Below the pieces are notes generated by a model. That model ran no database searches and was not told the origin of the DNA. It saw only the letters and a program-made list of their open reading frames with translations. A DNA stretch of 57,363 nucleotides, taken from an uncultured Spirochaetaceae bacterium (GTDB taxonomy: Bacteria; Spirochaetota; Spirochaetia; Sphaerochaetales; Sphaerochaetaceae). This document shows, piece after piece, positions 6,741 to 46,551 of the stretch; within the stretch, counting starts at the first letter, position 1, and each line of letters begins with the position of its first letter. A program made the translations under genes and the position numbers. The DNA is taken from contig CALXYN010000008.1 of assembly GCA_944392975.1 (NCBI GenBank), forward strand, positions 1 through 57,363. Reading direction: 5' to 3'.

Positions 6741-6747
6741 ATCAGGA

Positions 6748-6776: not shown

Positions 6777-6810
6777 TTGACTACAAAGCTCTTTCCGTTC
6801 TAGTGTTCAA

Positions 6811-6886: not shown

Positions 6887-6925
6887 ATTTCAAATCCCCG
6901 GATAATCTATTTTTGGGAGATGCTA

Positions 6926-7939: not shown

Positions 7940-7966
7940 ATTTTTCTGTTATAATGAGGAGGAGCC

Positions 7967-10556: not shown

Positions 10557-10567
10557 AACTTAACCAA

Positions 10568-10601
10568 TGCCTCCGCTTACAGCGTATAAAGAGCGGAGGC
10601 A
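10568..10601 (+). promoter_or_regulatory. Hairpin sequestering the next gene's Shine-Dalgarno
   Basis: TGCCTCCGCT (10568-10577) and AGCGGAGGCA (10592-10601) are perfect complements with a 14-base loop. The right arm contains the GGAGG Shine-Dalgarno of the gene at 10604. No T run follows on either strand, so it does not look like a normal terminator. It could hold down translation of the downstream gene or end thiBPQ transcription weakly. Confidence 0.55.
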
Positions 10602-10603
10602 AA

Positions 10604-26399: not shown

Positions 26400-27110
26400 A
26401 TGAATATTGCATTGATTATAGCAGGTGGAACAGGATCACGTATGGGAATGGATGTCCCCAAACAGTTCATAACAATTGATGGAAAACCCATCTTGATTTA
26501 TACAATGGAATGTTTTGAAAGACACCCAATGATTGATGAAATTGAATTAGTTTGCCTTGATGGTTGGCAAACTATAGCAAAAAAATATGCAGAGAAATTC
26601 AATATAACGAAGCTGAAAAAAATAGTAACCGGAGGAGCAAGCGGACAGGAGTCAATACGAAATGGAGTTTATGCCCTTAAGCAGAAATGTGCTGCAGATG
26701 ACATTATAGTTATCCACGATGGTATCCGCCCACTTATTGATGAAAGTGTACTCTCTGATGTTATTGCAAAATGCCAGAAATATGGCAATGCAGTTTCTTC
26801 ATTACCATATAATGAGCAAATATTTATTATTGATGATGAAATATCTACCACAAAATATATTCCAAGAGAAACACTTAGACGAGTTTCAACCCCTCAAGCT
26901 TATAAATATTGTCTCCTTTTAGAAAAATACGAGGAAGCCTTTGAAAGAAAGATTGGAATATATGGTTCATCATATACCAATACGATGATGGTGGAATTGG
27001 GAGTAAGACTTTATTTTGCTGCAGGGTCAGATAAAAACATCAAATTGACAACAAAAGATGATCTAGAAATTTTCAAAGGATATCTTAATTCACATAAAAA
27101 GGAATATTGA
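26400..27110 (+). CDS. IspD/TarI-family cytidylyltransferase
   Basis: This 236-residue enzyme transfers CMP from CTP to a phosphorylated alcohol. The family motifs are ALIIAGGTGSRMG, PKQFITIDGKP, VIHDGIRPLI and the C-terminal KLTTKDDLEI. IspD (isoprenoid synthesis) and TarI (CDP-ribitol) are close relatives. I favour a glycan role because the next gene is an oxidoreductase, the third is a LicD phosphotransferase, and the region is an AT-rich surface-glycan island. The product would be a CDP-alditol. AAGGAAG precedes the ATG. The upstream 150-base gap has TATAAT near 26323 and no other clear element. Confidence 0.82.
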   Translation: MNIALIIAGGTGSRMGMDVPKQFITIDGKPILIYTMECFERHPMIDEIELVCLDGWQTIAKKYAEKFNITKLKKIVTGGASGQESIRNGVYALKQKCAADDIIVIHDGIRPLIDESVLSDVIAKCQKYGNAVSSLPYNEQIFIIDDEISTTKYIPRETLRRVSTPQAYKYCLLLEKYEEAFERKIGIYGSSYTNTMMVELGVRLYFAAGSDKNIKLTTKDDLEIFKGYLNSHKKEY

Positions 27111-27112
27111 TT

Positions 27113-28198
27113 ATGAACAATGTTCTATTAACTGATAAATTATATATTGAAGATTTAGAAAGCATTATTTGTTCAACAAATTTTGATTCACTAAAAAATA
27201 AATCAATAATGATCTCCGGAGCAACAGGAATGATAGGAAGCCTTCTTGTTGATGCCTTGATGCATGCAAACAAAAAACTGGGGACATCTATAAAAGTACT
27301 TGCATTGGGGCGTAATATTGAGAAGGCAAAGAAAAGATTTCCTTATTTTGGCGAACAATTATTTCAATTCATGCAATGCGATATATCAAATAAGAATACT
27401 CTTCAAGTAAATGAAAGTATTGATATAATCATACATTTAGCAAGTACCACACATCCTCTAGCCTATGCAACTGATCCAATTGGAACAATCACTTCAAATG
27501 TTTATGGAACGATGAATCTATTGGATTTGGGAGTAAGACATAACATACAAAAATTCATACTAGCTTCTTCTGTAGAAATATATGGTGAAAACAATGGTGA
27601 TAAAGAATATTTTACAGAGGATTATTGCGGATATATAAATCCAAACACACTTAGAGCAGGCTATCCTGAAAGCAAACGGGTCTCAGAGGCTTTATGCCAG
27701 GCTTTCATTCAGAAATATGGTATTGATATCAGCATTCCCAGACTTTCCAGGGTATTTGGTCCGACAATGCTAGCCTCTGATTCAAAAGCTTTATCCCAAT
27801 TCTTAAAAAAGGCTGTAAATCATGAGAATATTGTATTGAAAAGTTCTGGTACTCAAAAATATTCCTATTGCTATTCAGCAGATGCCGTATCAGCAATACT
27901 TGCAATCATCATCAGTGGCGAAAAAGGTGAAGCCTACAATGTTTCTGGAACAATGGATTGTAACATTACACTAAGGAATCTGGCTGAATTAATTGCAAAA
28001 ATGGCAAATACAAATTTACGTTTTGAAATTCCTGATGAAATGGAACAGGCAGGTTACTCAAAAGCCACTAAAGCTCTTTTAGATATAGATAAAATCAGAA
28101 CACGACTTAACTGGGTACCAAAATATTCAATAGAAGCTGGAATCTCAAGAACAATATCTATTTTGCAGCATCTTCCTGAGTTTAAACAGAAGATTTGA
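27113..28198 (+). CDS. NAD-dependent epimerase/dehydratase (extended SDR)
   Basis: This 361-residue extended short-chain dehydrogenase binds NAD(P) through SGATGMIGS (residues ~35-43). It contains IIHLAST, FILASSVEIYGE and the catalytic GYPESKRVSEAL, in which Tyr and Lys have the YxxxK spacing. It starts 2 bases after the cytidylyltransferase stop; I use ATG 27113 (AAGGA 9 bases upstream) rather than TTG 27107. Paired with a TarI-like enzyme it would supply or modify the sugar alcohol that is activated. It could also be an ordinary nucleotide-sugar epimerase. The 3' end overlaps the convergent licD gene by 17 bases. Confidence 0.8.
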   Translation: MNNVLLTDKLYIEDLESIICSTNFDSLKNKSIMISGATGMIGSLLVDALMHANKKLGTSIKVLALGRNIEKAKKRFPYFGEQLFQFMQCDISNKNTLQVNESIDIIIHLASTTHPLAYATDPIGTITSNVYGTMNLLDLGVRHNIQKFILASSVEIYGENNGDKEYFTEDYCGYINPNTLRAGYPESKRVSEALCQAFIQKYGIDISIPRLSRVFGPTMLASDSKALSQFLKKAVNHENIVLKSSGTQKYSYCYSADAVSAILAIIISGEKGEAYNVSGTMDCNITLRNLAELIAKMANTNLRFEIPDEMEQAGYSKATKALLDIDKIRTRLNWVPKYSIEAGISRTISILQHLPEFKQKI

Positions 28199-29105
28199 TT
28201 ATATTTCCGTCTGCATCTAATTCTGGAAGATTAACTTGAAGGAAGAAATGGGGACTTCTATCATTTTCTGGAGGTAATTCCATATAGTCCCCATAGAACT
28301 CTTTCAGAATCAAATCAATTTTTCCGGGAAGATTAACGGATTTACCTTCGAAATCAGCTCTCATAGATGGTACATAATAGTTAACAGGAAATAGTTCATG
28401 TTTATAATTATGAAGACCTGTCGGAATAACCATATAATCACTAGCAGGATGTCTTGATACCCTATCCAAATGATTTATCCAAACTTTCTGAGGAATAACT
28501 CCAAGAATTTTTCCTAGAATATAACCACTATATAACTCTGCACGAGTTATCAAATTACAATTTTTTCTATGATTTTTTATCACACGATGATACTGGCGAG
28601 AGTACAATATCGTATAGTTTATATCACGAAGAAAATTCAGATAATGTCCTTGCAAAAATCGCAGAATTTTTGATTCAGGTGCAAAATCTATAGGAAATAT
28701 ATCGATAAATACTTCACAGTCATTTTCATCCTTAACAAGTTCTCTAAGTAAAGTTCCTCTCAACTTTATTTTCATATAAGCAAAAGATCCCACATTATCG
28801 GAATTAGGGGCTTCAACGATATATTTTTCTGAAAATGCCTCATTAAAAGCTTTTTTAAAAACTTCGAAATCTTTTCGTGGCATAGAAAGGTCTACGTCAT
28901 CATCCCATGGAATAAAACCATGATGCCTGATAGCTCCAAGAGCTGTTCCTCCAGACAGGTAATATGTTAGATTTCTGCTCTCACAAAATGTAATAACATC
29001 ATTCATAATACAAAAAAGAATACGATGAAGTTTTTTCAGATCTTCATCTGAAAGCTGTACAAAAATATTCCTATTGCATTTTATAAAATCTCTAATTGGA
29101 TCCAC
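28182..29105 (-). CDS. LicD-family phosphotransferase (1)
   Basis: LicD proteins move phosphocholine or another phospho-alcohol from a CDP donor onto a glycan. The family core is intact: TYYLSGGTALGAIRHHGF followed by IPWDDDVDLSMPR, with the acidic metal-binding cluster. Further blocks are VFIDIFPIDFAPES and EFYGDYMELPP. The length of 307 residues is typical. It is most similar to the LicD at 35303, sharing sequence throughout, and less so to that at 34495. It overlaps the upstream glycosyltransferase gene by 14 bases and faces the TarI/SDR pair. Donor (CDP-choline or a CDP-alditol) is undecided. Confidence 0.88.
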   Translation of the reverse strand: MDPIRDFIKCNRNIFVQLSDEDLKKLHRILFCIMNDVITFCESRNLTYYLSGGTALGAIRHHGFIPWDDDVDLSMPRKDFEVFKKAFNEAFSEKYIVEAPNSDNVGSFAYMKIKLRGTLLRELVKDENDCEVFIDIFPIDFAPESKILRFLQGHYLNFLRDINYTILYSRQYHRVIKNHRKNCNLITRAELYSGYILGKILGVIPQKVWINHLDRVSRHPASDYMVIPTGLHNYKHELFPVNYYVPSMRADFEGKSVNLPGKIDLILKEFYGDYMELPPENDRSPHFFLQVNLPELDADGNIIKSSV

Positions 29106-30075
29106 TTTCCATCTCCTGTTTCACTTCATTCAGAAGGAATCCATAGACTGTATCTTTTCCATCGGTATGGCATCTATGTTTCTGGTTCCACACAAGTTTT
29201 GAGAAAATATTATCCGAGAGTATACGGGATACTTTGTTCTTATCATATGGATTATTAAGAATTGAGACCAGCTCATATAATCCTTCACTTGTTGAATCAA
29301 GATTATCAATCATTGAATGAATATCATCAAACTTCCAATATGCAAGCATTATTGAATAATCCAACAAGTAATAATCAATAATTACATCATGATCAATCCA
29401 ATATGATGACAGCAATTCCTTTACAAAAGAAATAAGCTTTGAATTAGATAGCCCCCCTAAAACAAAACAGTGGACTCTGTCATTTTGTACGAATGCTGTT
29501 TTCTTTAGACTTGTATGCAATGAATAGAATGTTTTCTCAAAAATTTCTGAAGGAATCTTCTGAGACACATAGATTGTTGAATCAAGCCACAATCCGCCAT
29601 GAGAAGATATAAGATATATTCGCATAATATCTGAAAGTTGCGCGAATGAGATATATCCTTTCTCATGCTTCTCAATTATATATGAAGGAATATCGGCATA
29701 TTGGTAATAATTATTCTTATCTATAACAACTACTTCTGCTCCATTGGCATTTTTTCTCATACTATCAATACACATACGTACGAGTTCTGGTGCAGAAGAT
29801 TCTCCCTGCCACCACATCACCCATATGTAATGTTTATTCTCTGACTTTTTAATATCAGGAAAATCAAGTTTTTTATATTTCCCAATAAGTTCACTGTAAT
29901 TCTCAGCAAGATAATCCAAAACAAATCTATGTTTTTTCTGAACAATACGATATATGAACTCATTCTGAAAAACAGGAATAAAATACAATAAACTTATCAG
30001 AGTTTCAAAATTCAGTTTCCATGATATTTTATGTCCAACTCGAAACCAATTCTTAATCAACCATCTAGTATTCAT
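29092..30075 (-). CDS. Capsular polysaccharide synthesis-type glycosyltransferase
   Basis: This 327-residue GT-A glycosyltransferase is of the Caps_synth/GT32-like group. The signature block HYIWVMWWQGESSAPELV occurs near residue 84, followed by VVVIDKNNYYQYADIPSYI. The substrate-binding ISFAQLSDIMRIYLISSHGG with LWLDSTIYV contains the DxD-equivalent acidic residues. The protein is cytoplasmic with a hydrophobic patch near residues 25-40. It lies in a three-gene leftward group (pyruvyltransferase-like, this gene, LicD) with overlapping or near-touching ends, so it probably adds a sugar to the same glycan that LicD decorates. Confidence 0.85.
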   Translation of the reverse strand: MNTRWLIKNWFRVGHKISWKLNFETLISLLYFIPVFQNEFIYRIVQKKHRFVLDYLAENYSELIGKYKKLDFPDIKKSENKHYIWVMWWQGESSAPELVRMCIDSMRKNANGAEVVVIDKNNYYQYADIPSYIIEKHEKGYISFAQLSDIMRIYLISSHGGLWLDSTIYVSQKIPSEIFEKTFYSLHTSLKKTAFVQNDRVHCFVLGGLSNSKLISFVKELLSSYWIDHDVIIDYYLLDYSIMLAYWKFDDIHSMIDNLDSTSEGLYELVSILNNPYDKNKVSRILSDNIFSKLVWNQKHRCHTDGKDTVYGFLLNEVKQEMESGSN

Positions 30076-30090
30076 ACAAATAATCCATAT

Positions 30091-31077
30091 TCAAAAATAA
30101 ATACATTTTGCACCAAATTGAGAACACCATTCAGCAATTGCATCAATATTGATTTTTATTTGTACAGGAGAATCTTTCAATACAATTTCTGGAAGTTCTG
30201 ATATTTGTTTTCTTTCTAAAACATTTAAATTAAAAGAATCTCGAAAACCAATTGCTCTGTGATCTACTGCTATTATGAAAGCTCTAACACGATGCTGAAG
30301 TGCAAATATTCCTCCATGAAGTCTGGTTCCAATATAATCAACGGCTCCATTTTCACACACTTCTGAAAATTTCTTGAGCGAATACAGCACAGTATAATTA
30401 TGATCAGGCATAAGTGAATTCAGATATTTTTCATCATGAATTGTCTGTATCCAGAAATATTTGCATTCATAAAGCTTATTAATCTGAAAAAGTAACTGTT
30501 TATCAGCCTCTGGGTTTCTTAATACTCTATTACCACTAAGAGAAATAATAACATTTTTTTGTTTTTCCGGATTGATACTTTCACAGAACGAAGGTGTAAA
30601 TCTCCAAATTGAGGGACATCCAGTATTCAAGACTTTAAAACCCATTGAAGAAAGAAACCTAGCAGAAAATTCATCTCTTACACTATGAATAATATCCTTT
30701 CTAAGTATTTTATTATAGATCAACTTTGAATACAGAGATGGTAATAAAGATTCATAGGTAGTCCCAACTCCTACCAAAATTGTATTTTCATATAGTTTTG
30801 ATGATATTGGTCCTATTGGCCATTGATAAAATGTCTTGGCAATTCTTGCTGATAACAAATCAGTACCTATAATAAATTTATAATCGCAAGAATTTGAGAA
30901 ATCAACCTTGGGATTATTTTTATATGATGTCAATCCGAAATTATGCAAATGTGTAGCAAACTGTACTGTAAATGAATTCTCAAAAAGAGTGGGGATAGCA
31001 GAAATGAAACTATCCATAATAATTTGATCACCTATATTTCCTGACCCAACTATCGTATTGAAAAGCGCAATATTCAT
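30091..31077 (-). CDS. Polysaccharide pyruvyltransferase-family protein
   Basis: This 328-residue protein belongs to the PS_pyruv_trans family, whose members add pyruvate ketals to surface sugars. Evidence is the opening SGNIGDQIIMDSF, the conserved SVRDEFSARFLSSMGFKVLN and NTGCPSIW, and the later TRLHGGIFALQHRVRAFIIA with the family's R-H pair. It starts the leftward operon that ends with LicD. The -10 TATAAT ends 9 bases before the ATG with no Shine-Dalgarno sequence, so it may be leaderless. The substrate sugar is unknown. Confidence 0.82.
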   Translation of the reverse strand: MNIALFNTIVGSGNIGDQIIMDSFISAIPTLFENSFTVQFATHLHNFGLTSYKNNPKVDFSNSCDYKFIIGTDLLSARIAKTFYQWPIGPISSKLYENTILVGVGTTYESLLPSLYSKLIYNKILRKDIIHSVRDEFSARFLSSMGFKVLNTGCPSIWRFTPSFCESINPEKQKNVIISLSGNRVLRNPEADKQLLFQINKLYECKYFWIQTIHDEKYLNSLMPDHNYTVLYSLKKFSEVCENGAVDYIGTRLHGGIFALQHRVRAFIIAVDHRAIGFRDSFNLNVLERKQISELPEIVLKDSPVQIKINIDAIAEWCSQFGAKCIYF

Positions 31078-31086
31078 ATCGGGGAT

Positions 31087-31178
31087 ATTATATCAATAAG
31101 AAAGTCTTATCATTAGGGAACATAAATCATTCCACATAGAAAACAGGTCTTAGAATATGGACATGACAAGTGTATAAT
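31087..31178. promoter_or_regulatory. Divergent promoter region between pyruvyltransferase and licA operons
   Basis: A minus-strand TATAAT (31092-31087) ends 9 bases before the ATG at 31077. A plus-strand TATAAT (31173-31178), with weak TTAGAA 17 bases upstream, lies 35 bases before licA. The region is very AT-rich. No operator repeat was recognised, and licA has no visible Shine-Dalgarno site. Confidence 0.5.
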
Positions 31179-31213
31179 TATAAACTTATTTAAAAACACA
31201 AAATTAATAAAAT

Positions 31214-32260
31214 ATGAACATAAAATTTACAGAAAATTTGAATATAAATAAAAATTTATTTAAGCTACAAGAAGTTTCTTCTAATAAAATCTGCAATAAT
31301 TGTGGATTGGTTAATAAATCCAGGAATCGATTACAATCTGAATATCTTCTCGCAAATGAATCCCAACCAGAACCTATACAAATCATATGCAAAGCTCTAA
31401 ACGTCTCATATAAAGATATTTCCAATATTAAACTCCTAAAAAAAGGAATGACTAACAAATCTTTTATTTTTTTCTGTATGGGTAAGAAATATATTATGAG
31501 AATCCCTGGAGAGGGTACAGAAAAATTAATTAATCGACAAAATGAAAAAACTGTATATGATGTAATTAATCTGCAAAATATCTCTGATCATATCATTTAT
31601 TTTGATGCCAAAACTGGTTACAGAATTACGGAATACATAGAAAACGCAAGAACCTGCAATCCGAACTCAGAAGACGATATAAGAAAATCAATGGCATTTC
31701 TTCGCTCATTCCACGAGAAAGCTCTATCGGTCAATCACGAATTCGATGTTTTTACTCAAATTGATTTTTATGAATCATTGTTTGGAGGGAATTCATCATA
31801 TATAGATTATCTTGATACGAAAAAAAACATATTATCTCTACGAAATTTCATTGAAGAGCATTCGAGAACGAAAACCCTCTGTCATATTGATTCCGTTCCA
31901 GATAATTTTCTATTTTATCGGGAAGGAATGCACCAAGAAATAAGATTAATCGATTGGGAATATTCAGGAATGGCAGATCCCCTCATAGATATTGCAATGT
32001 TTTGTATTTATTCTTTATATGATGAGACGAATATAGAAAAAACGATCGATGCATATTTCCCAGAAGGAACTTCAAGGATTACAAGAACATTAATTCATTG
32101 TTACATCGCGACATGTGGTTTACTTTGGAGTAATTGGTGTGAATATAAACATCTACTTGGAGTTGAGTTCGGAAAGTACTCTCTATCTCAATATCAGTAT
32201 GCAAGAAATTACTACAGTATTGCCCAAAAAGAAATAGCAGAAATTATGGAGGAAGAATAA
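31214..32260 (+). CDS. licA: Choline kinase, LicA-like
   Basis: LicA phosphorylates choline with ATP. The kinase core begins near residue 74 with LLKKGMTNKSFIF, then YIMRIPGEGTEKLINR. It contains the Brenner motif CHIDSVPDNFLF and the metal site LIDWEYSGMADPLIDIAMF. At 348 residues it is about 60 longer than typical LicA, the extra being an N-terminal stretch containing CNNCG (a single Cys pair). No later start fits better: the next methionine lies inside the kinase core. It overlaps licC by one base, TAATG. The phosphocholine pathway context supports choline rather than ethanolamine as substrate. Confidence 0.88.
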   Translation: MNIKFTENLNINKNLFKLQEVSSNKICNNCGLVNKSRNRLQSEYLLANESQPEPIQIICKALNVSYKDISNIKLLKKGMTNKSFIFFCMGKKYIMRIPGEGTEKLINRQNEKTVYDVINLQNISDHIIYFDAKTGYRITEYIENARTCNPNSEDDIRKSMAFLRSFHEKALSVNHEFDVFTQIDFYESLFGGNSSYIDYLDTKKNILSLRNFIEEHSRTKTLCHIDSVPDNFLFYREGMHQEIRLIDWEYSGMADPLIDIAMFCIYSLYDETNIEKTIDAYFPEGTSRITRTLIHCYIATCGLLWSNWCEYKHLLGVEFGKYSLSQYQYARNYYSIAQKEIAEIMEEE

Positions 32261-33006
32261 TGAACGAGGTAAAAAGAGCTATTATCCTCGCAGCTGGAAA
32301 AGGAACAAGACTCCGACCTATTTCTGATTCTGTCCCCAAACCTCTAATAGAAGTTAATGGAAAAAAAATGATCGAAACAATCATTGATGCTCTTATCACC
32401 AATAATATAAATGAAATTTACATTGTTATTGGGTACATGAAAGAAAAATTTCAGCAGCTTAAATTAAAGTACCCTTTCATAAAATTTATTGAAAACCCGT
32501 ACTACGATATGTGTAATAATATCTCTTCCATATATGTTGCAAGAAAATATCTTGAAAACTCAATCATTATAGAAGGCGATTTAAATATATATGATCCTGA
32601 CTCACTAACCCCTTTTTTCTTGCGTTCAGGTTATGATGCACTTTTTATTAATAATCCAACAAATGAATGGGTTTTAAATTTAAACAAGAAAGGTATTATC
32701 ACAAGTTGTTCTCCGAAAGGTGGAGATAAAGGATGGCAGCTTTTTGGAGTATCTCGATGGTCAAAAACAGATGGGAACCGTCTATGCACATATATTGAAA
32801 AAGAATTCATTGAAAATAGAAACACAGCAATTTATTGGGATAACATCGCCCTTTTCATATATAAAGATGAATTTGAATTAGGAATACATCCCATAAACAG
32901 CAAAGCAATTATCGAAATTGATAGTATTGAAGAACTTGCAATGATAGATAGGAAATACAAGAAATACTTGGAGAAACAGAATGAAAGACACAACAATGAA
33001 AATTGA
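32260..33006 (+). CDS. licC: CTP:phosphocholine cytidylyltransferase, LicC-like
   Basis: LicC activates phosphocholine to CDP-choline. The nucleotidyltransferase motif AIILAAGKGTRLRPISD (residues 8-24) is followed by VPKPLIEVNGK. The ENPYYDMCNNISSIYVA block, the LicC-type GWQLFGVSRW and IYWDNIALF segments, and the acidic EIDSIEELA near the C terminus are present. The length of 248 residues matches LicC. It sits between licA and a BCCT transporter with overlaps on both sides, forming a complete choline uptake and activation operon. Confidence 0.9.
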   Translation: MNEVKRAIILAAGKGTRLRPISDSVPKPLIEVNGKKMIETIIDALITNNINEIYIVIGYMKEKFQQLKLKYPFIKFIENPYYDMCNNISSIYVARKYLENSIIIEGDLNIYDPDSLTPFFLRSGYDALFINNPTNEWVLNLNKKGIITSCSPKGGDKGWQLFGVSRWSKTDGNRLCTYIEKEFIENRNTAIYWDNIALFIYKDEFELGIHPINSKAIIEIDSIEELAMIDRKYKKYLEKQNERHNNEN

Positions 33007-34498
33007 TTGGGTAATTACAATAATTCCTTTTATCACAATTCTAATAATGTGCATGCTTTTTTTCGTTTTCCCTTTGGAATCTAACGTAATAATAAGTCAA
33101 GTCCGTTTTTTTCTTGGAGATACAATGGGTTCATATTATCTATTAATCGGACTGAGTATTTTTCTATTTTCTCTATTTCTTGCATTTTCAAAATATGGGA
33201 GCATTATACTTGGAAAACAAAATGATAGACCCAAGTATTCATTTTTCACTTGGGGTGCAATGATGTTCACAGCAGGCTTAGCCGCAGACATCCTTTTCTA
33301 TTCATTTTCTGAGTGGATTCTTTATGCAACAGATAAACATATAGAAAAACTCGGGGGATTCGAATCTTGGGCAAGCGTATTTCCATTATTTCACTGGAGC
33401 TTTATTCCCTGGGGGTTTTATCTCGTACTAGCAGTAGCCTTTGGATTCATGATGCATGTGAGAAAAAGCGATAAACAAAAATTCTCTGAAGCTTGCCGAC
33501 CTTTATTAGGTAAATATACAGACAAATTACCTGGTAGAATAATCGATCTTCTAGCTGTATTTGCATTGATAGCTGGAACAGCAACTACATTCAGTTTGGC
33601 TACACCACTGATGGCAAATGTAATAAATGTATTATTTAATACGTCTATTAATAGAAATTTGCTCACTATTATCATTTTGCTAATAACTTGCATTGTATAT
33701 ACATACTCATTACTTCATGGTTTTAAAGGAATAAGTCTGCTCGCAAAAGGATGCGTATATATTTTTCTCATTCTTCTTCTATATGTTTTTTTCCTTGGTG
33801 GTGAAACCAAATTTATATTTGAAATGGGAATAGAATCACTAGGAAGAATGCTTTCTAATTTTATTGAACTATCAACATTTACTGATCCGTATCGGGAAAC
33901 TCTATTCCCTCAGAACTGGACATTATTCTATTGGGCATACTGGATGGTTTGGTCAGTTGCCGCCCCTTTCTTCATAGGTCAAATCTCAGAGGGAAGAACA
34001 ATCAAACAAACAATTTTAGGAGGATACGGATTCGGAGTAGGATCTACAATATTGAGCTTTGTGATTTTAGGTAACTATCCTTTAAAAAAACAGATTGATG
34101 GTACAGCCGACTTTATTTCTTCCTATCTAAAGGATGGGGATCTTTATAATACTATAATAGAAATTATAAAAACGCTTCCTGCAGCAGAAATAGTCCTCAT
34201 AATGCTTTTGCTAGCAATGATTGCCTTTTATGCTACTTCATTTGATTCAATAGCACTTATTGCTTCATACTACAGTTATAGAACTATACCATCAGGAAAA
34301 ATCCCCAATAAAATAATTGAATTTATGTGGTGCATATTGTTAATTCTACTTCCAATTGCGTTGGTTTTTTCATCAAGCTCGATGAACAATCTACAATCAG
34401 TAAGTATTATTGCGGCATTTCCACTAGGAATAGTAATTATTCTTATTGCAATAAGCCTGATAAAAGAACTGCAGCAGTTCAGTTGCAAAGACAACTAA
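32981..34498 (+). CDS. BCCT-family choline/betaine transporter
   Basis: This 505-residue, roughly 12-helix transporter is of the betaine/choline/carnitine family. The diagnostic helix-8 block WTLFYWAYWMVWSVAAPFF is present with GQISEGRTIK after it. The tryptophan-rich opening of that block forms the substrate cage in the family. The start at 32981 has GGAG 7 bases upstream and overlaps licC by 26 bases, so it is firmly part of the licA-licC operon. It takes the place held by the small LicB permease in Haemophilus and pneumococcal lic loci. Choline as substrate is inferred from this context. Confidence 0.88.
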   Translation: MKDTTMKIDWVITIIPFITILIMCMLFFVFPLESNVIISQVRFFLGDTMGSYYLLIGLSIFLFSLFLAFSKYGSIILGKQNDRPKYSFFTWGAMMFTAGLAADILFYSFSEWILYATDKHIEKLGGFESWASVFPLFHWSFIPWGFYLVLAVAFGFMMHVRKSDKQKFSEACRPLLGKYTDKLPGRIIDLLAVFALIAGTATTFSLATPLMANVINVLFNTSINRNLLTIIILLITCIVYTYSLLHGFKGISLLAKGCVYIFLILLLYVFFLGGETKFIFEMGIESLGRMLSNFIELSTFTDPYRETLFPQNWTLFYWAYWMVWSVAAPFFIGQISEGRTIKQTILGGYGFGVGSTILSFVILGNYPLKKQIDGTADFISSYLKDGDLYNTIIEIIKTLPAAEIVLIMLLLAMIAFYATSFDSIALIASYYSYRTIPSGKIPNKIIEFMWCILLILLPIALVFSSSSMNNLQSVSIIAAFPLGIVIILIAISLIKELQQFSCKDN

Positions 34499-35310
34499 AT
34501 CCATCTGGTTTCCACGTCATGCACCATACGCTTTTCTGGCGGGGGTAATTGCATATAATTCTCCCCATAAGCTCGTAGTAAATAATCTTTCCAATCTCTA
34601 GGAGCATAGAAAAACGTATCTTCAAATATAACAGTTTGTGGATTATCAAAATCCTCTTTCTTCAAATATACAAAATGCTTATTTCTTTCTTCCACATCTG
34701 CAACGAACTCAGACTTATCAAAAGACGTTTTTCGAAGAATCCGATCAATCAATTCATTACGTTTTTTTGCATGTGGAAAAATAAAACAACACAAATTTCC
34801 TAAAATATTGAGAAAATTTTTCTTATTTCTGATTGCGTAAATATCTGCAATCTGAATCGTTTTATTAATATAAAGTCTGAATCTTCTAATAAGAGATAAT
34901 GGCGAAATACCAGGGATTCCATCGTATGGAAAAATATCAATCCAAACACCCATTCGTTTCGGTTGATTCCGTATGTATGATGGTTTTACGATTGTCCTAT
35001 CGTCACATATACGTATGATTTGATAATGATAATTGTCATCTGTTGTATAATGAAGGTGATAAAAATGCTCTCCTATCTTTTCACCAGAATTAAGCATGAA
35101 TAACAATCGATCATAATCAGGACGAGGTATCCCTATATCCATATCATTATCCCAAGGAATGAACCCCTTATGCCTTATGGCTCCAAGGAGAGTTCCATAA
35201 ACCATCACATAACGAATATTGTTATCAACAAGAAATGAATGAAGAACCTTCATCATTTCCAACATTATACTTTGTTGTTCTGTAATTGATAGAATTTTAG
35301 AACTATTCAT
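34495..35310 (-). CDS. licD: LicD-family phosphotransferase (2)
   Basis: This 271-residue LicD protein shows VYGTLLGAIRHKGFIPWDND and MDIGIPRPDYD, a family variant with DND in place of DDD. Downstream blocks are WIDIFPYDGIPG and AYGENYMQLPPPE. I start it at ATG 35310, which has GGAGG 5 bases upstream; an in-frame ATG at 35334 lies inside the preceding gene and lacks a ribosome site. It is the more distant of the three LicD paralogues. It converges on the BCCT gene with a 4-base overlap and is read with the LicD at 35303. It probably uses CDP-choline made by the neighbouring LicA/LicC. Confidence 0.87.
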   Translation of the reverse strand: MNSSKILSITEQQSIMLEMMKVLHSFLVDNNIRYVMVYGTLLGAIRHKGFIPWDNDMDIGIPRPDYDRLLFMLNSGEKIGEHFYHLHYTTDDNYHYQIIRICDDRTIVKPSYIRNQPKRMGVWIDIFPYDGIPGISPLSLIRRFRLYINKTIQIADIYAIRNKKNFLNILGNLCCFIFPHAKKRNELIDRILRKTSFDKSEFVADVEERNKHFVYLKKEDFDNPQTVIFEDTFFYAPRDWKDYLLRAYGENYMQLPPPEKRMVHDVETRWI

Positions 35311-36205
35311 TTTTTCCTCCATGACCAAAATCAACCGCGGTAAAACAACATGTATAATCGCTTGTATCCTTTGGAGGAGTCATATAGTCTCCATAAAACT
35401 TTGTAAGTAGACTTTCAACTTTATTTGGAATGTTTACTTCTATACCTTCAAAAACACCTTTTCTAGGAGGATAAAAAGTAGCCACAGGAAAACATTCTTC
35501 ACTATACCTGTGTATACCAGAGGCAACAACATAAAAAGAAGACTCTTTTTTCTCTACCATCTTATCAAAATGATTAAGCCATTTCTCGAGAGGGATAATA
35601 CTCAAAATCTTCCCCCAGACATATTTTACATGCAAAGCTCTTCTTAATCGTTTACTGCATTTTCTTTCATAAGGTTTAAAGACATCGGAATAAATTTTTG
35701 AAAATAAAACAGAATATGCTAGACTACGATACACAAAATACCACGCTTCACAAATAGATCTATGAATTTTAGACTCAGGCGCATATTCAAGAGGAAACAC
35801 ATCAATAAATATCCCATAATTTGGACCAGGAGCCATTAAACTCCTCATAACAGTTCCTTTTTTTCTTATTTTCATAAAAGGAAGTCCTCCAACATTTGGA
35901 CAACCAGGAGCTTCTACGGAATATTTATCCTCATACACATGTTCAAATTTCTCTCGAAAAATTTTGTAATCCTTTTTGGGTAGAACAATATCAATATCAT
36001 CATCCCAAGGGATAAAACCATGATGCCTAATAACTCCCAAAGCAGAGCCTCCAGTGAGATAATATGTTAAATTTTGTTTTTCACAAAAATGAATAACGTC
36101 TTTCAACATTTCGACCTGGATTTTATGCATCTTCTGTATTTCTTCTTTTTTTAAAGGAATGAAGGCTTCCTTTATTTCTTTCCTGAATTCTTTCACTGCA
36201 TCCAT
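35303..36205 (-). CDS. licD: LicD-family phosphotransferase (3)
   Basis: This 300-residue LicD protein contains TYYLTGGSALGVIRHHGF, IPWDDDIDIVLPK, VFPLEYAPESK and FYGDYMTPP. It aligns along its length with the LicD at 28182 (shared HRxLxxxMxDVIxFCE-type N terminus, GLHNYKHELFPV versus GIHRYSEECFPV). It overlaps licD (2) by 8 bases and is the first gene of that pair. A -10-like TAAAAT lies about 18 bases upstream of the ATG, with no clear Shine-Dalgarno site. Two adjacent LicD enzymes may decorate different sugars of one glycan. Confidence 0.87.
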   Translation of the reverse strand: MDAVKEFRKEIKEAFIPLKKEEIQKMHKIQVEMLKDVIHFCEKQNLTYYLTGGSALGVIRHHGFIPWDDDIDIVLPKKDYKIFREKFEHVYEDKYSVEAPGCPNVGGLPFMKIRKKGTVMRSLMAPGPNYGIFIDVFPLEYAPESKIHRSICEAWYFVYRSLAYSVLFSKIYSDVFKPYERKCSKRLRRALHVKYVWGKILSIIPLEKWLNHFDKMVEKKESSFYVVASGIHRYSEECFPVATFYPPRKGVFEGIEVNIPNKVESLLTKFYGDYMTPPKDTSDYTCCFTAVDFGHGGKNE

Positions 36206-36297: not shown

Positions 36298-37905
36298 ATG
36301 GAAAAAAACTCAGACAAGAATCTAAATAGAATAAGGTATTCAAAACTGAATATCACAATAGCCCTTATCACATCTATTGCAATGGGATTCCTTAATTTTA
36401 TCGAAAGAACTGTTTTTAACAGATTCTTTATTGAAGACTATCTTGGGTTATTCAGTTTTTACAATAGTGTCATCGGAATTCTTGGTACTGTTGAACTGGG
36501 AATAACAAGTTCCATAGCCTTTGCCCTGTATGCACCACTTGAGTATAGAAACAAGGGACAGATCAGAGCAATCATGAGTTTTTTCAAAAAAGTTTATATA
36601 GCTATTGGTACTATAATTTTTTGTTCAGGACTAATTGTAATGCAGTTTTTCCCGTTGTTACTTAAAACAGAAGTTCCAATGCAGTGGGCAAAAATTTATT
36701 TTCTGTTTTTCCTGTTCAGAACGGCTTCAAACTATCTCTTTGGATATAAATCAATTCTTTTCACTGCTAATCAAGAAGAATATAAGACAACTCTCGTATC
36801 AAATATTTGTTGGTGCTTCTTATATTCCTTGGATATGGTAATAACAATAACTACTCAGAATTTTCTACTCTATTCAATCAGCATTTCAGTAGTAAACCTA
36901 ATTCGATTGATAATTATAAACATATTAGCTATCAAGGATTTCAAATGGATAAAAGGAGCCATAAAAGAGAAAATTAATCCTGCTGTCAAGACACATATCA
37001 TAAAAAATACGAAAGGTCTTATTGTAACAAGATTCGGGAATATGATTATCAGTGTTACAGATACTCTTCTAATAAGTATAATGGTAGGGACTGCAACACT
37101 CGGTCTTTATTCAAACTACACTATGATAACCTCCGGACTCACTACATTTGTAAATATTTTACCGAAATCAATTACAGCAAGTATCGGAAATGCAGGTGTT
37201 ACAGAAACAAGACGATCAATGTCAAAGAGTTTTAGCATTATGAATCTTGCTTCATTCTTTATCTATGGTTCAACAACTATTCTTCTTGTGAATATCCTAA
37301 ACCCTATTGTGTCTACGTTTTTTGGTTCCAACAGAACCTTTAATATGTTATCCGTTGTACTAATCTGTACTTCATTTTATTTGACATGTGCAAGAGAGAT
37401 TTTCTTTACATATAAATCATCTCTTGGATTGTATTGGGAAGATAGGAAACGTCCATTAATTGCCGGACTTGTAAATCTAATTACATCGGTAATATTCGGG
37501 AAATACATGGGTTTAAATGGCATTATATTAGGTACTATTTTCACAAATCTTTTTGTCAATCTGCTATTTGAACCGACTGTTATAATCCATAAAGGTTTCA
37601 GAAGTTCAGCTTTTTGGTTCTATATAACGATAATCGGAAGACTATTACTTGTATCAGGAATATCAATACTAACGCTTTTTATAAACAGCTTCATACATAT
37701 AAACGGAATTCTTGAGATTATAATAAAATTCATTACTACGCTGATTGTTCTGTTATTAACATTCTTGTTGATATACAGAAATAATCAAGATGCAAGAACA
37801 ATCCTATCGACCGTGAAAATCGCATTCATGGATAAAAGAAAGCTCAAGAAGCTGGAGAAAGAAAAAAACAAAGAAGAATCTTCTACTTCTTCAGATTATC
37901 AATAA
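36298..37905 (+). CDS. Wzx/MATE-type polysaccharide flippase
   Basis: This integral membrane protein of about 535 residues has 12-14 helices and belongs to the MOP superfamily. It would flip lipid-linked glycan units across the inner membrane. Helices start at SKLNITIALITSIAMGFLNF; the N-terminal FSFYNSVIGILGTVELGI and the mid-protein FGNMIISVTDTLLISIMVG blocks resemble oligosaccharide flippases. The last 35 residues are highly charged (KKLEKEKNKEE). I use ATG 36298 because a promoter ends 25 bases before it; the alternative ATG 36238 would add 20 residues. No Shine-Dalgarno is visible for either. The 3' end overlaps the convergent glycosyltransferase by 23 bases. Confidence 0.83.
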   Translation: MEKNSDKNLNRIRYSKLNITIALITSIAMGFLNFIERTVFNRFFIEDYLGLFSFYNSVIGILGTVELGITSSIAFALYAPLEYRNKGQIRAIMSFFKKVYIAIGTIIFCSGLIVMQFFPLLLKTEVPMQWAKIYFLFFLFRTASNYLFGYKSILFTANQEEYKTTLVSNICWCFLYSLDMVITITTQNFLLYSISISVVNLIRLIIINILAIKDFKWIKGAIKEKINPAVKTHIIKNTKGLIVTRFGNMIISVTDTLLISIMVGTATLGLYSNYTMITSGLTTFVNILPKSITASIGNAGVTETRRSMSKSFSIMNLASFFIYGSTTILLVNILNPIVSTFFGSNRTFNMLSVVLICTSFYLTCAREIFFTYKSSLGLYWEDRKRPLIAGLVNLITSVIFGKYMGLNGIILGTIFTNLFVNLLFEPTVIIHKGFRSSAFWFYITIIGRLLLVSGISILTLFINSFIHINGILEIIIKFITTLIVLLLTFLLIYRNNQDARTILSTVKIAFMDKRKLKKLEKEKNKEESSTSSDYQ

Positions 37906-39010
37906 TGATTGAAGCAACTTTTGAAGCGCTGAATTCAATTGGAAGTGCATTGAAACTTGCATCAAGTTTTATAAGCTTTTCGGGGTTCTGCACATAATCA
38001 CATACAATATCAACAGCTTTTTCTTTCTCATTAGCACAGTTCCATCCGATTTTGTATTTCTCAACATAATCAGCAGAAGGAATGACCGTGTATACAAGTT
38101 CAGTTATTAGGAACGGACGATGCATATACATTGCCTCTAGAATTGTATTTATTCCTGCCCTCCCCGCTACGATATCAGAAGCTGCCAGATAATCATTAAC
38201 ATCTGTTATAAAACCTCTGATATACACCTTCGTGTTCTGAGCCTTGCTTCTGGAAATGATACTATCAAGCTTCTCTGTCATTGACTTATTCATTCCGCCG
38301 ATTATAACAATCTGCATTGGCAGGTCTTTTTTCAGAAGTGAGTGCAGAAGGGCTAGAGAACCTATTCCTTCACCACCAAGATTCAATTGAAGCGTAAACA
38401 GGTTCTCATCCAGTTCGATTTTCTTTCTTGCTTCTTCTTTTGAAAGTACAGGAGAATCAGCAATTGACTGCTGCAAAGGAAACGGAACAATCTCGATACT
38501 TTCTGGATTCTGTCCCATAGCCATTACTCTTTCCGCTCCCTCTTCCGTGGAGATGAAGAATTTTCTGAGCTTATCGCAAACAGAAGCAACAGGCGCGTTG
38601 AAAACATCTGTAGCATAATAGAAAACCGGAATATCAATTTCCAGCTTTGAAAGCATTTCAGAAAGGATCGTACTTGCATATGGATGCGTTGCAAAAATGA
38701 AATCTGGCTTGAACTCATCCAGGTTTGCAGTAAGCATCCTCCAGCAATGCTTATTGGCAAAACGAATAGCCAATTCCATTCCATTCGAATCTGAATCATT
38801 GTGTTTTGAAAGATGCTGCTCAAGATTCGGGAATCTCAGCATCGTTCTCCAATAAGACTTATTCAGCCTTCCCATCCATTGGATATCAAGATAATCGAAG
38901 AACTCTTCAACCTCAACTTCGACCCCAATCTTTTTCAATTCCTCAGCAACAGCCTTGGCAGGGACATAATGCCCCTTGCCACCATCAACATATATGCAAA
39001 TCCCTTTCAT
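37883..39010 (-). CDS. GT28/MGDG-synthase-like glycosyltransferase, paralogue A
   Basis: This 375-residue GT-B glycosyltransferase resembles diacylglycerol glucosyl/galactosyltransferases (UgtP, MGDG synthase). The glycine-rich acceptor loop YVDGGKGHYVPAKAVAEEL is at residues ~6-24. The C-terminal donor domain has LNLGGEGIGSLALL, VIIGGMNKSM and AGRAGINTILEAMYMHRPFLI. Its paralogue at 45421 shares each block, with the same KGHYxPAKA opening and GGEGIG loop. The in-frame extension to 39064 is hydrophobic and lies before a run of eight As, so I start at 39010 by alignment with the paralogue. A glycolipid product is likely; the sugar is unknown. Confidence 0.82.
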   Translation of the reverse strand: MKGICIYVDGGKGHYVPAKAVAEELKKIGVEVEVEEFFDYLDIQWMGRLNKSYWRTMLRFPNLEQHLSKHNDSDSNGMELAIRFANKHCWRMLTANLDEFKPDFIFATHPYASTILSEMLSKLEIDIPVFYYATDVFNAPVASVCDKLRKFFISTEEGAERVMAMGQNPESIEIVPFPLQQSIADSPVLSKEEARKKIELDENLFTLQLNLGGEGIGSLALLHSLLKKDLPMQIVIIGGMNKSMTEKLDSIISRSKAQNTKVYIRGFITDVNDYLAASDIVAGRAGINTILEAMYMHRPFLITELVYTVIPSADYVEKYKIGWNCANEKEKAVDIVCDYVQNPEKLIKLDASFNALPIEFSASKVASIIIDNLKK

Positions 39011-39126
39011 TTTTTTTTGATTCCAGACACATATTAACACAACTGGGAAAAACAGCAAAATCATGGAATAAAATCGCCTCGAATATGGAGTTTTCTTGTA
39101 ACGATACCTTGAATATTCCGGCTTCC

Positions 39127-43099: not shown

Positions 43100-43642
43100 A
43101 TGAAAAGATTTTTTGCCTTATTACTCTGCCTGTCCATCCTATTCTCTATTTCAGCTGCAAACAATACAGGCAGAATTGGAATCCAATTCGCCGCACAAGG
43201 TTATATTGGAACAGATGAAAGCCCAGCAAACGCCCAAGAAGTTGCAATCTCAGTTTCCGGTGCAAATTTCTTTGGAGAAGATGGAATATTCGGAATTAGA
43301 TACTCATTTGGATATGGTTTCTCTTTCGATGGATTAGAGAACTTCAAGCCTCTGCATTTCGGACTGGATTCAATCTTCAGTTTAGAAATTTCAGATTCTC
43401 TATCAATTGAACCGAAAATTGGACTGGCAGATACGCTCTATATTTTTGATGACATAACATCAAACGAATTCGGGATTGCAATAGGCTGTGGTTTTGAATA
43501 TGAGCCGATCAATCATCTCGGAATAAATGCTGCTATCAATTATACATTGCCTATTGTCTCTAGTTATAAGAATTCAATTTCAACCATTGCTTTTGACAAG
43601 CATGTATTATCTTTTGGTCTTGCCGTAAATTATCTTTACTGA
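43100..43642 (+). CDS. Small exported barrel-like protein
   Basis: This 180-residue protein has a signal peptide (residues 1-~20, RFFALLLCLSILFSISAAN) followed by short amphipathic strands (GRIGIQFAAQGYIG, GIFGIRYSFGYGFSF, LHFGLDSIFSLEIS). It ends in HVLSFGLAVNYLY, with an aromatic C-terminal residue typical of outer-membrane barrels. GAGG precedes the ATG and a TATAAT lies near 43060. It is 10 bases upstream of the GT80-like lipoprotein gene and presumably co-transcribed with it. Its family is not recognised. Confidence 0.7.
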   Translation: MKRFFALLLCLSILFSISAANNTGRIGIQFAAQGYIGTDESPANAQEVAISVSGANFFGEDGIFGIRYSFGYGFSFDGLENFKPLHFGLDSIFSLEISDSLSIEPKIGLADTLYIFDDITSNEFGIAIGCGFEYEPINHLGINAAINYTLPIVSSYKNSISTIAFDKHVLSFGLAVNYLY

Positions 43643-43652
43643 GGAATAAGAA

Positions 43653-45311
43653 ATGAAAACAATCAGAAACTTGTTGATTATATCAATTGCTTTTATTCTC
43701 ATTTGCAGCTGTAGCGGATACATAAACTGGGATAATTCTACAAAAGTTGAGGAAACAAGTAATGCAACCTCTGCACGAATAGACCTTCTTCCGGAATATG
43801 TGGACCAAGGTGCAACCACAATCTCTATAGAAGTTACACTTCTCAATGGCATGAATCTGCCAATAAAAACAATCGAGAATTCATATGAAATACTTTCTGA
43901 TGAAGAGGGATCATATATAATTCATGATTTCGAACACTTCGGCAAATTCCAGGTCATCGCAACTTACAAAAATGGAACCGAGGTAATTGGTGAAAACAAT
44001 TTTGAATATATACTTACATCAGATGAATACAATATTGCACTCCTGACGGCAACTGTTCCTACCACATATTTCAGCTTATTCATGTCAGATACGGACAACA
44101 GTTATGCCACAGAACAAGAAATAGGAATAAATGCATCTCTACCTACAATAATCGGAATGGAACGTGCAGCGACCTATGATTGGGACAACCTCTTGCCAAA
44201 TTTCAGCACATGTCCTTTTGCAGATGAAAGCTTGAATGATCAAAATCTCACTCCATATGAATGCATCAGAATGATGGAATCATTCAAACAGTACATTGAA
44301 TACCTCGACACCCTCAATCCTGAATCGGTATATCATTTGTATATTAACGATTTTGATTCTTATATCATCCCACATCTCATGCTTGAAAATGGGATTTCTT
44401 TTGACAGATTTGATGTATATGCAATCACAGATGGTACTGGAACTGCAGGAATATTCCGTGAAAAATATGGAACAGGGACAGCTCCTGATACATCGATGGA
44501 CTTCTATTCAAGAGTAGAAGAGACATGGGTAAAAGTCAAAAAACTCGCAAGTACAGGCGACTCTGGCTATGAGAGTATTCTGATAGAATTCTCAAATATT
44601 ATTCCACATCTTAATCGTTATATGCAGGATTTCATGCCAGTACTTGTTAATGACAGCGACCTAAAGATTACATGGATAATGAACAGGAACAATCCTGATG
44701 CATTTGGGACATCTGAAGTTTATACAGATAAAATACAGAACAATCCAAATGTCAAACAAATCAACATGAACAGCATTCTTGTAAGTCTTTCTGATGCAGA
44801 GATAAAAGAATTCCAAGGAATGTATAAATTTGATTCCTCTATATTTGAAGTTGCAGATGAAAGCGATAAAGGAATCATGATTTTTCTGGGGACATCAACG
44901 ACATATGAAGAACATTTCAGGGATTATCTCACATTCATGACGACATATTATGGAGACGAGTATGTCTATTATTACAAAGCTCACCCAGGATATGCGGCAG
45001 ATTATGATGATAATAAGGCAAACCTTCTTGCAGAACTGGGAATTCTGAATCTGGATGCAGCGATTCCAGCAGAACTGTTCTACTTTTTCCGTAACGATGC
45101 TGTAATGTGCGGTTACCAGTCCAGTACATTTGCAAATGCTGAAGGTGTTGAGATTTCCTGTATCGTGAATTCAGTAGAAACATACGGAGGCAGAGCAGAT
45201 CTTACAATAACTGCAAATGATGATGGTACATATATAGTTTCAAACATAAAGGACCATCCAGGTACATTTATCTGGGATCCATCAAAACCAGAAGTTTTTC
45301 CGTGGCTTTGA
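43653..45311 (+). CDS. Lipoprotein with GT80-like sialyltransferase domain
   Basis: This 552-residue protein starts with a lipoprotein signal (FILICSC, Cys20). Residues ~40-120 look like an Ig-like domain. The rest resembles GT80 sialyltransferases. Landmarks known from the Pasteurella enzyme are all in place and in order: D260 in ITDGTG (general base), MIFLGTSTTYEEHFRDY, H444 in YYKAHPGY, E474 in IPAELFYF, and S490-S491 in GYQSSTF. Spacing is close to that of the Pasteurella enzyme. The lipobox/Ig/GT80 order matches Photobacterium sialyltransferases as I recall them. The donor could be CMP-sialic acid or a related CMP-sugar; no neuA or neuB gene is here. GAGGAA precedes the ATG; a terminator follows. 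Confidence 0.72.
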   Translation: MKTIRNLLIISIAFILICSCSGYINWDNSTKVEETSNATSARIDLLPEYVDQGATTISIEVTLLNGMNLPIKTIENSYEILSDEEGSYIIHDFEHFGKFQVIATYKNGTEVIGENNFEYILTSDEYNIALLTATVPTTYFSLFMSDTDNSYATEQEIGINASLPTIIGMERAATYDWDNLLPNFSTCPFADESLNDQNLTPYECIRMMESFKQYIEYLDTLNPESVYHLYINDFDSYIIPHLMLENGISFDRFDVYAITDGTGTAGIFREKYGTGTAPDTSMDFYSRVEETWVKVKKLASTGDSGYESILIEFSNIIPHLNRYMQDFMPVLVNDSDLKITWIMNRNNPDAFGTSEVYTDKIQNNPNVKQINMNSILVSLSDAEIKEFQGMYKFDSSIFEVADESDKGIMIFLGTSTTYEEHFRDYLTFMTTYYGDEYVYYYKAHPGYAADYDDNKANLLAELGILNLDAAIPAELFYFFRNDAVMCGYQSSTFANAEGVEISCIVNSVETYGGRADLTITANDDGTYIVSNIKDHPGTFIWDPSKPEVFPWL

Positions 45312-45325
45312 TTTATGTGTTTCTC

Positions 45326-45354
45326 GCGGGCTGTTTTTATAGCCCGCTTTTTTT
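45326..45354 (+). terminator. Intrinsic terminator of the GT80-like gene
   Basis: The stem GCGGGCT/AGCCCGC (45326-45332, 45341-45347) with an 8-base loop is followed by seven Ts, 14 bases after the stop codon. Confidence 0.92.
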
Positions 45355-45420
45355 CACCATTCTCCAAATCTTCACAAATTATTTATTGTAAGAGACTTCC
45401 CTTTCATGCATTATGAAATC

Positions 45421-46551
45421 ATGAAAGGAGCAATGCTATATGTCGATGCGGGCAAAGGTCACTATACACCAGCAAAAGCTCTCGCTGACAATTTTCTGAA
45501 AGCTGGCCACGAAGCTATCGTAGAGAACCTATTCAACACTTTTGACTCGGCTTTCTGGAATGTAATGACAAAATACTCCTGGCGCTTGATGCTGCATTTT
45601 CCTCGACTTGAACCTTTTCTGACAAACAGCATCGATTCAAGATTCAATGCATTTCTGATGAAACGGGTTGTAGAACTTGAAAAGCATCTGAATGCCTTCA
45701 AGACATGGTATGAGAAAGAGAAACCAGATTTCATAATCTCAACAAACTTCATCGGGGGTGCAATCATTCCTACAGCAGTGAAAAAACTGCATCTTGATGT
45801 ACCTGTATACCAGTATCTTGCAGATGTTTTTGACACACCCAGAATCGGTATCAATAGCAATCTTACCAGAATGTATACCCCTTCCGAGCTTGGTGTGAAG
45901 AATGCATTTGAAAAAGGACAGAACATAACATCCTTGTCTATCTGCTCCTTCCCTCTTCAGCAGAAATTTGATTCATATGAAAAGAAGAGCAAGTCAGAAA
46001 CAAGAAAGAAGCTTGGGCTTGATGACAAGTTTACAATACTCTGTTCTTTAGGCGGAGAAGGTATAGGAACTTCCGCGCTTCTTTACAAACTTGCAGAAAC
46101 CAATATTGACTGCCAGGTAGTGACAATTGGTGGCCGCAGCAAGTCTACAGACAAGAGCTTTGCCAGATTCAAAAAGAAATATCCATCCTTTTCTCTTGTG
46201 CAGAGAGGTTTTGTGGACAATGTTCCAGATTATCTCAGCGCATGTGACATGCAGATTGGAAAAGCTGGAGCAAACAGTGTGATGGAATCTATATACATGC
46301 ATACTCCGTTTATCATCACACAGGTACTCTACCCTTTTGAAGCTTCTCTTGATTTTCTAAAAGAACATCCTGTGGGATGGGGAGAAAATGATGAGGGAAG
46401 ACAAGTTGAAATCATCAGGGAATTCATGGAAAGCGAAAGTCTGCGAAAATCTGTCGAAAAGGAATTTCAGAATATTCCGCTGAAATTTGGAGCATCTGCA
46501 TTCAGAGACCAGATAATAAAAGACACCGAAGAGTTCAGAAGGTTGCGGTAA
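45421..46551 (+). CDS. GT28/MGDG-synthase-like glycosyltransferase, paralogue B
   Basis: This 376-residue GT-B enzyme is paralogous to the gene at 37883. Shared blocks are the acceptor loop YVDAGKGHYTPAKALADNF, LGGEGIGTSALLYKL, VTIGGRSKSTDKSF, QRGFVDNVPDYLSACDMQ and GKAGANSVMESIYMHTPFIIT. It probably glycosylates a diacylglycerol or similar membrane lipid. ATG 45406 is in frame, but 45421 matches the start of the paralogue (MKGAMLYVD against MKGICIYVD); neither has a good Shine-Dalgarno site. It follows a strong terminator, so it needs its own promoter; I could not place one confidently. It overlaps the convergent gene by 17 bases. Confidence 0.82.
   Translation: MKGAMLYVDAGKGHYTPAKALADNFLKAGHEAIVENLFNTFDSAFWNVMTKYSWRLMLHFPRLEPFLTNSIDSRFNAFLMKRVVELEKHLNAFKTWYEKEKPDFIISTNFIGGAIIPTAVKKLHLDVPVYQYLADVFDTPRIGINSNLTRMYTPSELGVKNAFEKGQNITSLSICSFPLQQKFDSYEKKSKSETRKKLGLDDKFTILCSLGGEGIGTSALLYKLAETNIDCQVVTIGGRSKSTDKSFARFKKKYPSFSLVQRGFVDNVPDYLSACDMQIGKAGANSVMESIYMHTPFIITQVLYPFEASLDFLKEHPVGWGENDEGRQVEIIREFMESESLRKSVEKEFQNIPLKFGASAFRDQIIKDTEEFRRLR

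Follow-up and report, generated by a model that had tools for sequence, protein, structure and literature searches.

Nucleotide-sugar glycosyltransferases normally work inside the cell, where nucleotide sugars are. The window (the whole stretch of 57,363 nucleotides that was analysed, from an uncultured Spirochaetaceae bacterium) encodes a protein that resembles sialyltransferases of glycosyltransferase family 80 (GT80) and carries the signal of a lipoprotein. What is this protein and, if it is an enzyme outside the cytoplasm, where would its donor come from? An earlier note, made from the sequence alone, had read in it a lipobox, an apparent Ig-like domain and a GT80 domain with the landmarks D260, H444, E474 and S490-S491, within what it called a surface-glycan region. 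The gene and its surroundings comprise the following features.

43100..43642, + strand: gene for a small outer-membrane β-barrel of 180 amino acids (aa), with a signal peptide and eight strands (Pfam OMP_b-brl, AlphaFold2 (AF2) model, conserved upstream position)
43641..43646, + strand: ribosome-binding site GAGGAA, which overlaps the barrel gene's stop codon (sequence)
43653..45311, + strand: gene for the lipid-anchored GT80-related protein, with an intact reading frame from the ATG at 43653 to the stop ending at 45311 (552 aa)
43653..43712, + strand: lipoprotein signal peptide, residues 1-20, ending ICS-C20, with C20 the presumed lipidated cysteine (sequence)
43734..44018, + strand: Ig-like β-sandwich domain, residues ~28-122 (AF2 strands; aligns with the N-terminal domain of 2z4t and 4r83)
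44019..45284, + strand: GT-B domain of GT80 type, residues ~123-544 (VIA-align and hhalign, values below)
44430..44432, + strand: codon of D260, equivalent of the catalytic base D141 of PmST1 (alignment; PMC2169525)
44976..44987, + strand: codons of K442-A-H444-P445, equivalent of (F)KGHP (K, H and P invariant in 18 sequences; PMC5517516)
45072..45074, + strand: codon of E474, equivalent of the ribose-binding E338 (invariant in 18 sequences; PMC5517516)
45120..45128, + strand: codons of S490-S491-T492, phosphate-binding SS motif (S/T at 490 and 491, T492 invariant in nine sequences)
45326..45347, + strand: rho-independent terminator-like stem 3' of the two-gene unit, nine pairs of which six are GC, followed by T7

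In the sequence, 10 bases separate the barrel gene from the GT80-related gene. The architecture and the secretion signal of the 552-aa protein are read from sequence or prediction. Its lipobox, MKTIRNLLIISIAFILICS-C, is that of a lipoprotein by sequence criterion, and C20 is invariant in an alignment of nine sequences (relatives 30-61% identical), with lipoboxes VSSC, FAGC, LSSC and similar. AF2, run on the nine-sequence alignment, gave a model with pLDDT 85.5 and pTM 0.83, in which the strands of the Ig-like domain fall in residues 30-131. As assessed by VIA-align, residues 28-550 of this model align to Photobacterium 2z4t, Ig-like domain included. Both the lipobox and the Ig-like domain of the earlier note are thus borne out, and so is the GT80-type fold that it proposed. 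Indeed, the model scores Z 18.1-21.9 against all 21 GT80 structures listed, with the next fold family at Z 10.1, and the best 19 Foldseek matches are all GT80, with E-values down to 8e-15.

At the level of sequence, the relationship is visible only when relatives are aligned. Single-sequence searches with the 552-aa protein gave no match in Pfam, NCBIfam or the PDB sequences. No match to Pfam PF11477 (GT80) above the cut-off was found for this protein or anywhere in its genome, and one of the nine aligned members matches PF11477 (2.5e-6). A profile of the nine members, searched against 177,635 PDB sequences, placed GT80 chains first (E 8e-4 to 4e-3, non-GT80 chains from 0.43), and an 18-member profile spans the entire GT80 domain of the Pasteurella and Photobacterium enzymes (hhalign, 3.8e-12), the reference sequences of which agree with their PDB chains. 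The profile match by which the earlier note would have judged GT80 membership therefore fails for the protein alone and succeeds for the profile of its aligned relatives. The motifs are similarly mixed. The FKGHP motif of GT80 enzymes, with its HP core, is present as YK[A/G]HP in the close family, and the SS motif is present as S490-S491, with S or T in all nine sequences. The strict YDDGS motif (D/E-D/E-G) is replaced by ITDGTG in the window protein and by SDG in relatives. A 20-sequence tree unites the nine window-type proteins (91/97) and separates them from known enzymes. Because the strict GT80 motif and Pfam tests fail, we file the protein not as a member of GT80 but as a candidate GT80-related sister family, which probably works like a GT80 enzyme.

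Would the site of such an enzyme still be functional? In the enzyme group, a lysine contacts cytosine, a glutamate contacts ribose, and the HP histidine and two hydroxyl residues contact phosphate (PMC5517516), and the base is the second acid of D/E-D/E-G (PMC2169525, PMC4202792). All known contacts of the group, and the base, have putative equivalents in the window protein. Residues D141/H311/E338/S355/S356 of PmST1 (PM0188, a GT80 enzyme of Pasteurella multocida), numbered as in PMC4202792 and with a sequence that agrees with PDB 2ex0, correspond to D260/H444/E474/S490/S491. Spacings in the window protein and PmST1 are 184/170 from D to H, 30/27 from H to E and 16/17 from E to S, so the landmarks lie exactly where the earlier note had placed them, at spacings near those of PmST1. 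The same note had regarded the protein as divergent around the base motif (TDG), which taken as damage does not stand. In PmST1, D140, the first acid, points into the core and D141, the second, is catalytic (PMC2169525). As D260 corresponds to this second acid, TDG retains the base, and just the first acid has changed.

Conservation follows the same residues. In the nine-way alignment 49 of the 552 sites are invariant, and K442, D260, H444 and E474 are all among these (chance for four given sites, 5.5e-5). Across 18 cross-genus relatives, drawn from several spirochaete families and one actinobacterium, only six residues are invariant (G413, K442, H444, P445, E474, and G487), which makes the nucleotide pocket the best-kept part of the protein. 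D260-G261 is invariant in all 14 members of the set formed by the window-type proteins and their relatives in Propionibacteriaceae. In the distant relative L070 the base is lost, aspartate being changed to histidine, and some members may therefore not be conventional enzymes. Locus L071 carries two tandem GT80-like genes (8252-11106), the second of which lacks the glycine and reads NDMA where the DG of the base motif is expected.

Photobacterium GT80 enzymes carry an N-terminal lipoprotein signal. Those of known structure (2z4t, 4r83/4r9v, and 2zwi) are the nearest in architecture, sharing the order of an Ig-like domain followed by GT-B (2z4t and 4r83), and the window protein has equivalents of their base aspartate, HP histidine, ribose glutamate and SS motif. 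It is only 12-14% identical to them, with TDGTG and YKAHP in place of YDDGS and FKGHP. Unlike them, it has a paired barrel gene and a host genome in which no CMP-sialic acid synthesis genes were detected. PmST1 shares the GT-B fold (Z 18-20.5 to the window model), with ~14-16% identity in this domain by structure alignment, and was solved in a form lacking the Ig-like domain. The GT52/GT38 sialyl- and polysialyltransferases (MhPST, 5wc6), generally taken to act on the cytoplasmic side, have motifs of the D/E-D/E-G and HP types and a cytidine pocket in common with the window protein. Membership in GT52/GT38 was rejected, as the GT38 structure 5wc6 reaches only Z 9.6 to the window model vs 18-22 for GT80; the Pfam profile A-2_8-polyST is touched by two relatives (~5e-4). 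For surface sialylation from exogenous host CMP-Neu5Ac there is a precedent in another family, Lst of Neisseria gonorrhoeae (GT52), for which we know of no lipid anchor. The location of Lst was reported as the surface in 2002 and as the cytoplasm in 2021 (PMC8092323).

The strongest functional link that we found is the pairing with the barrel gene. The barrel matches Pfam OMP_b-brl at 9.7e-7 (29.5 bits vs a cut-off of 28.7), and its AF2 model (pLDDT 84.6) has eight strands, so that profile and strand number both agree with an eight-stranded protein of this family. Its best fold matches in the PDB are Ail, OmpA, OmpX, NspA, and OmpW. In 8 of 10 carriers, the neighbourhoods of which otherwise differ, the GT80-like gene has a barrel of this type upstream. 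Since co-occurrence counted from the barrel's own alignment was judged circular, the window barrel alone was searched against the 139 family genomes. Six non-self matches resulted, with 57.9-213.8 bits, each immediately upstream of a GT80-like gene, and the next match had 33.4 bits. Possible roles of the barrel are to tether the lipoprotein to the outer membrane, to serve as its acceptor or to let its substrate through. In two loci from different genera, L017:7740-8287 (+) and L020:4342-4930 (-), the reading frame of the barrel gene is interrupted precisely at a run of guanines just past the signal peptide (G8 in the former, G7 in the latter). These tracts are the sole G/C runs of at least 7 in the two barrel stretches, and the window barrel has no such tract. 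The frameshifts look like slipped-strand phase variation, or may be homopolymer assembly errors. Slipped-strand phase variation has been described for poly-G tracts of Treponema surface genes (e.g. PMC7864442).

The surface-glycan region of the earlier note is only partly right. The functional neighbour is the small barrel gene, the two genes travelling together while other neighbours differ. A glycan cluster occupies 26400-35334 of the window, with an IspD/TarI-like cytidylyltransferase (26400-27110), an NAD-dependent epimerase or dehydratase, a CsaB-like pyruvyl transferase and two LicD-type phosphotransferase-like genes (28182-29105 and 34495-35334). Two GT28-type diglycosyldiacylglycerol-synthase-like genes flank the region, at 37883-39064 (-) and 45406-46551 (+), and L013, a relative, has two tandem copies of the latter's counterpart (6561-7691 and 7705-8829). 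The idea that these neighbouring glycolipid glycosyltransferase genes form one system with the GT80-related gene was dropped, because the two-gene unit stays together while its neighbours change.

The distribution of the family is patchy. Clear homologues occur in 10 of 139 genomes of the window's own family, the carriers including uncultured Spirochaetales, Spirochaetaceae, and Sphaerochaetaceae genomes. Distant homologues, mostly with a lipobox, were found in six genomes from other parts of the phylum, and genome G287 has one without a signal peptide. A match of 20 bits in G059 was not counted, as it covers part of the Ig-like region only. A search of Propionibacteriaceae, prompted by L047, a metagenome-assembled genome of that family, yielded five genomes with secreted forms. 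These carry Sec-type signals but lack a lipobox, and an added ricin-type lectin domain is present in two (5e-27 and 1e-23). At L112:7567-9738 and L113:8227-10428, secreted actinobacterial GT80-like proteins have the ricin-type lectin domain at the N terminus, and one of these loci is on a 3.26-Mb contig. A sixth Propionibacteriaceae match, G686, proved to be a different protein (GT52 plus GT2) and was set aside. At L114:6122-8218, an actinobacterial fusion of GT52 sialyltransferase type and GT2 adjoins ABC-2 type polysaccharide exporter-like genes. No relatives were found on plasmids, phages or viral contigs, and an initial single-sequence scan of genome contigs was likewise empty. A partial literature search found no earlier description of lipid-anchored GT80 enzymes in spirochaetes. 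Three points are new: lipoprotein and barrel form a conserved pair, the family is separated in this lineage from the synthesis of CMP-sialic acid, and Gram-positive bacteria have secreted forms fused to a lectin.

Does the organism make the donor of a sialyltransferase? The earlier note had pointed out that no CMP-sialic acid synthesis genes are in the window, and this problem extends to the whole genome. In this genome (95% complete) CTP_transf_3 has no match, therefore no NeuA or KdsB was detected, and the sole match to the NeuB profile (42 bits) was rejected as a DAHP synthase fused to prephenate dehydratase, as read from its sequence. None of the ten family carriers (the window's own genome and nine close ones) has a strong NeuB or CTP_transf_3 match. 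Nor was a BNR_2 sialidase found in them, and there is thus no other sign of sialic acid use in these carriers. In contrast, NeuB (177-215 bits) and CTP_transf_3 (69-181 bits) are present together in all six distant spirochaete carriers outside G287. Although confounded by ancestry, this difference shows that CMP-nonulosonates of its own making are dispensable for the window lineage. G287 and the actinobacterium G496 have no strong match to either profile. We do not claim strict exclusion between the GT80-like gene and NeuB within the family; because a strong NeuB match is rare there (~1/9 of genomes), its zero overlap with the ten carriers is weak evidence.

The fold, the conserved nucleotide and catalytic sites and the absence of NeuA and NeuB, all derived computationally from sequence or structure prediction, led us to a best explanation that we hold with a little less than even confidence. 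The protein would be an extracytoplasmic, lipid-anchored, cytidine-nucleotide-dependent glycosyltransferase or transglycosidase that has a dedicated barrel partner and uses a donor which the cell does not make. We infer that barrel and GT80-related protein, presumably made from one transcript, would work together. The C-terminal half would bind CMP via K442, H444, P445, E474, S490, and S491, D260 would deprotonate a hydroxyl group of the acceptor, and the sugar transferred to or removed from extracellular glycans would most likely be a sialic-acid-like nonulosonate. As no CMP-sialic acid synthesis genes were found, the donor should be exogenous. It might be CMP-sugar released by the host or by neighbouring cells, or it might be taken from sialoglycans via CMP-dependent reverse transfer. 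GT80 enzymes perform reverse sialylation in vitro, acting as sialidases and trans-sialidases (PMC10795189), which offers one route to work outside the cell without a supply of CMP-sialic acid, given CMP. Against this explanation count the missing first acid of D/E-D/E-G, the lost base in L070, the neighbours of CDP type and the lack of a sialidase. Moreover, CMP-sugars are not known to be common outside cells.

The same fold and cytidine pocket might instead serve another donor, such as CDP-ribitol, a CDP-dideoxysugar or a periplasmic lipid-linked sugar rather than CMP-sialic acid. Since the strict GT80 sequence criteria fail, the donor could indeed be another cytidine-activated compound, and no strong NeuA/NeuB match was found in the family carriers. 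In two families, a D-ribitol-5-phosphate cytidylyltransferase-like gene directly follows the GT80-like gene (L016:9836-10552 and L067:6933-7649, both over the model cut-off). The cluster at L070:3524-12723 contains rfbF, rfbG, rfbH, a GtrA-type flippase, a ThDP enzyme, an epimerase, a GT2 gene and a GT80-like lipoprotein with a cadherin-like domain. These genes resemble a CDP-glucose pathway leading to a branched sugar of yersiniose type, in which the GT80-like protein may be altered. A different cytidine donor would be compatible with these three neighbourhoods, and the window's own glycan cluster has its IspD/TarI-like gene and two LicD-type genes. However, CDP-activated donors are cytoplasmic too, so the problem of location stays, most loci have no neighbour of CDP type, and the L067 protein, which has no signal peptide, may act in the cytoplasm. 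We regard another donor as doubtful on balance.

Alternatively, the protein could be a retired enzyme in which the GT80 fold, with Ig-like or lectin domains, recognizes glycans or nucleotides at the surface without catalysis. An extracytoplasmic place and no known donor would suit such a binder, as would the base lost in L070 and the ricin-type lectin fusions of Propionibacteriaceae. Yet 14 members that are 23-61% identical to the window protein retain the base together with the phosphate, ribose and cytosine sites, a full set that pure binding would not need, and we consider this reading distinctly unlikely. A conventional GT80 sialyltransferase exported by an unknown route and working on self-made CMP-sialic acid would accord with the six distant carriers that have both synthesis genes. 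It is hard to reconcile with the window's family, where all ten carriers are without a strong match to NeuB or CTP_transf_3 and the latter has no match at all in the 95% complete genome of the window; nor do we know of a bacterial CMP-sugar exporter, and this possibility is very improbable. Chance resemblance of an unrelated secreted protein sharing a few residues, for which the empty single-sequence searches of Pfam, NCBIfam and PDB might speak, has a negligible probability, because fold, profile and site conservation agree, and it is refuted by the comparison of the predicted fold.

Returning to the exogenous-donor explanation, we tentatively extend it to the whole family, an extension that is less likely than the explanation itself. 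It would be a cross-phylum family with extracellular activity on donors, cytidine-activated or CMP-regenerated, which are not self-made, e.g. as GT80-fold CMP-dependent trans-sialidases, with a dedicated barrel in spirochaetes (possibly phase-variable in some lineages) and lectin-fused secreted forms in Gram-positive bacteria. Taken together, these findings describe a family with an intact-looking cytidine pocket that is exported in two phyla, and the carriers of which in the window lineage show no CMP-sialic acid synthesis genes. Surface location, lack of donor genes and relatives secreted by Gram-positive bacteria make the origin of the donor a real puzzle. If the protein is active, it would have to capture its donor from the host or neighbours, or draw on existing sialoglycans by reverse transfer, and it would offer a setting in which the location of lipoprotein-type GT80 enzymes can be tested. 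If it is inactive, a glycosyltransferase fold would have been turned into a surface binder.
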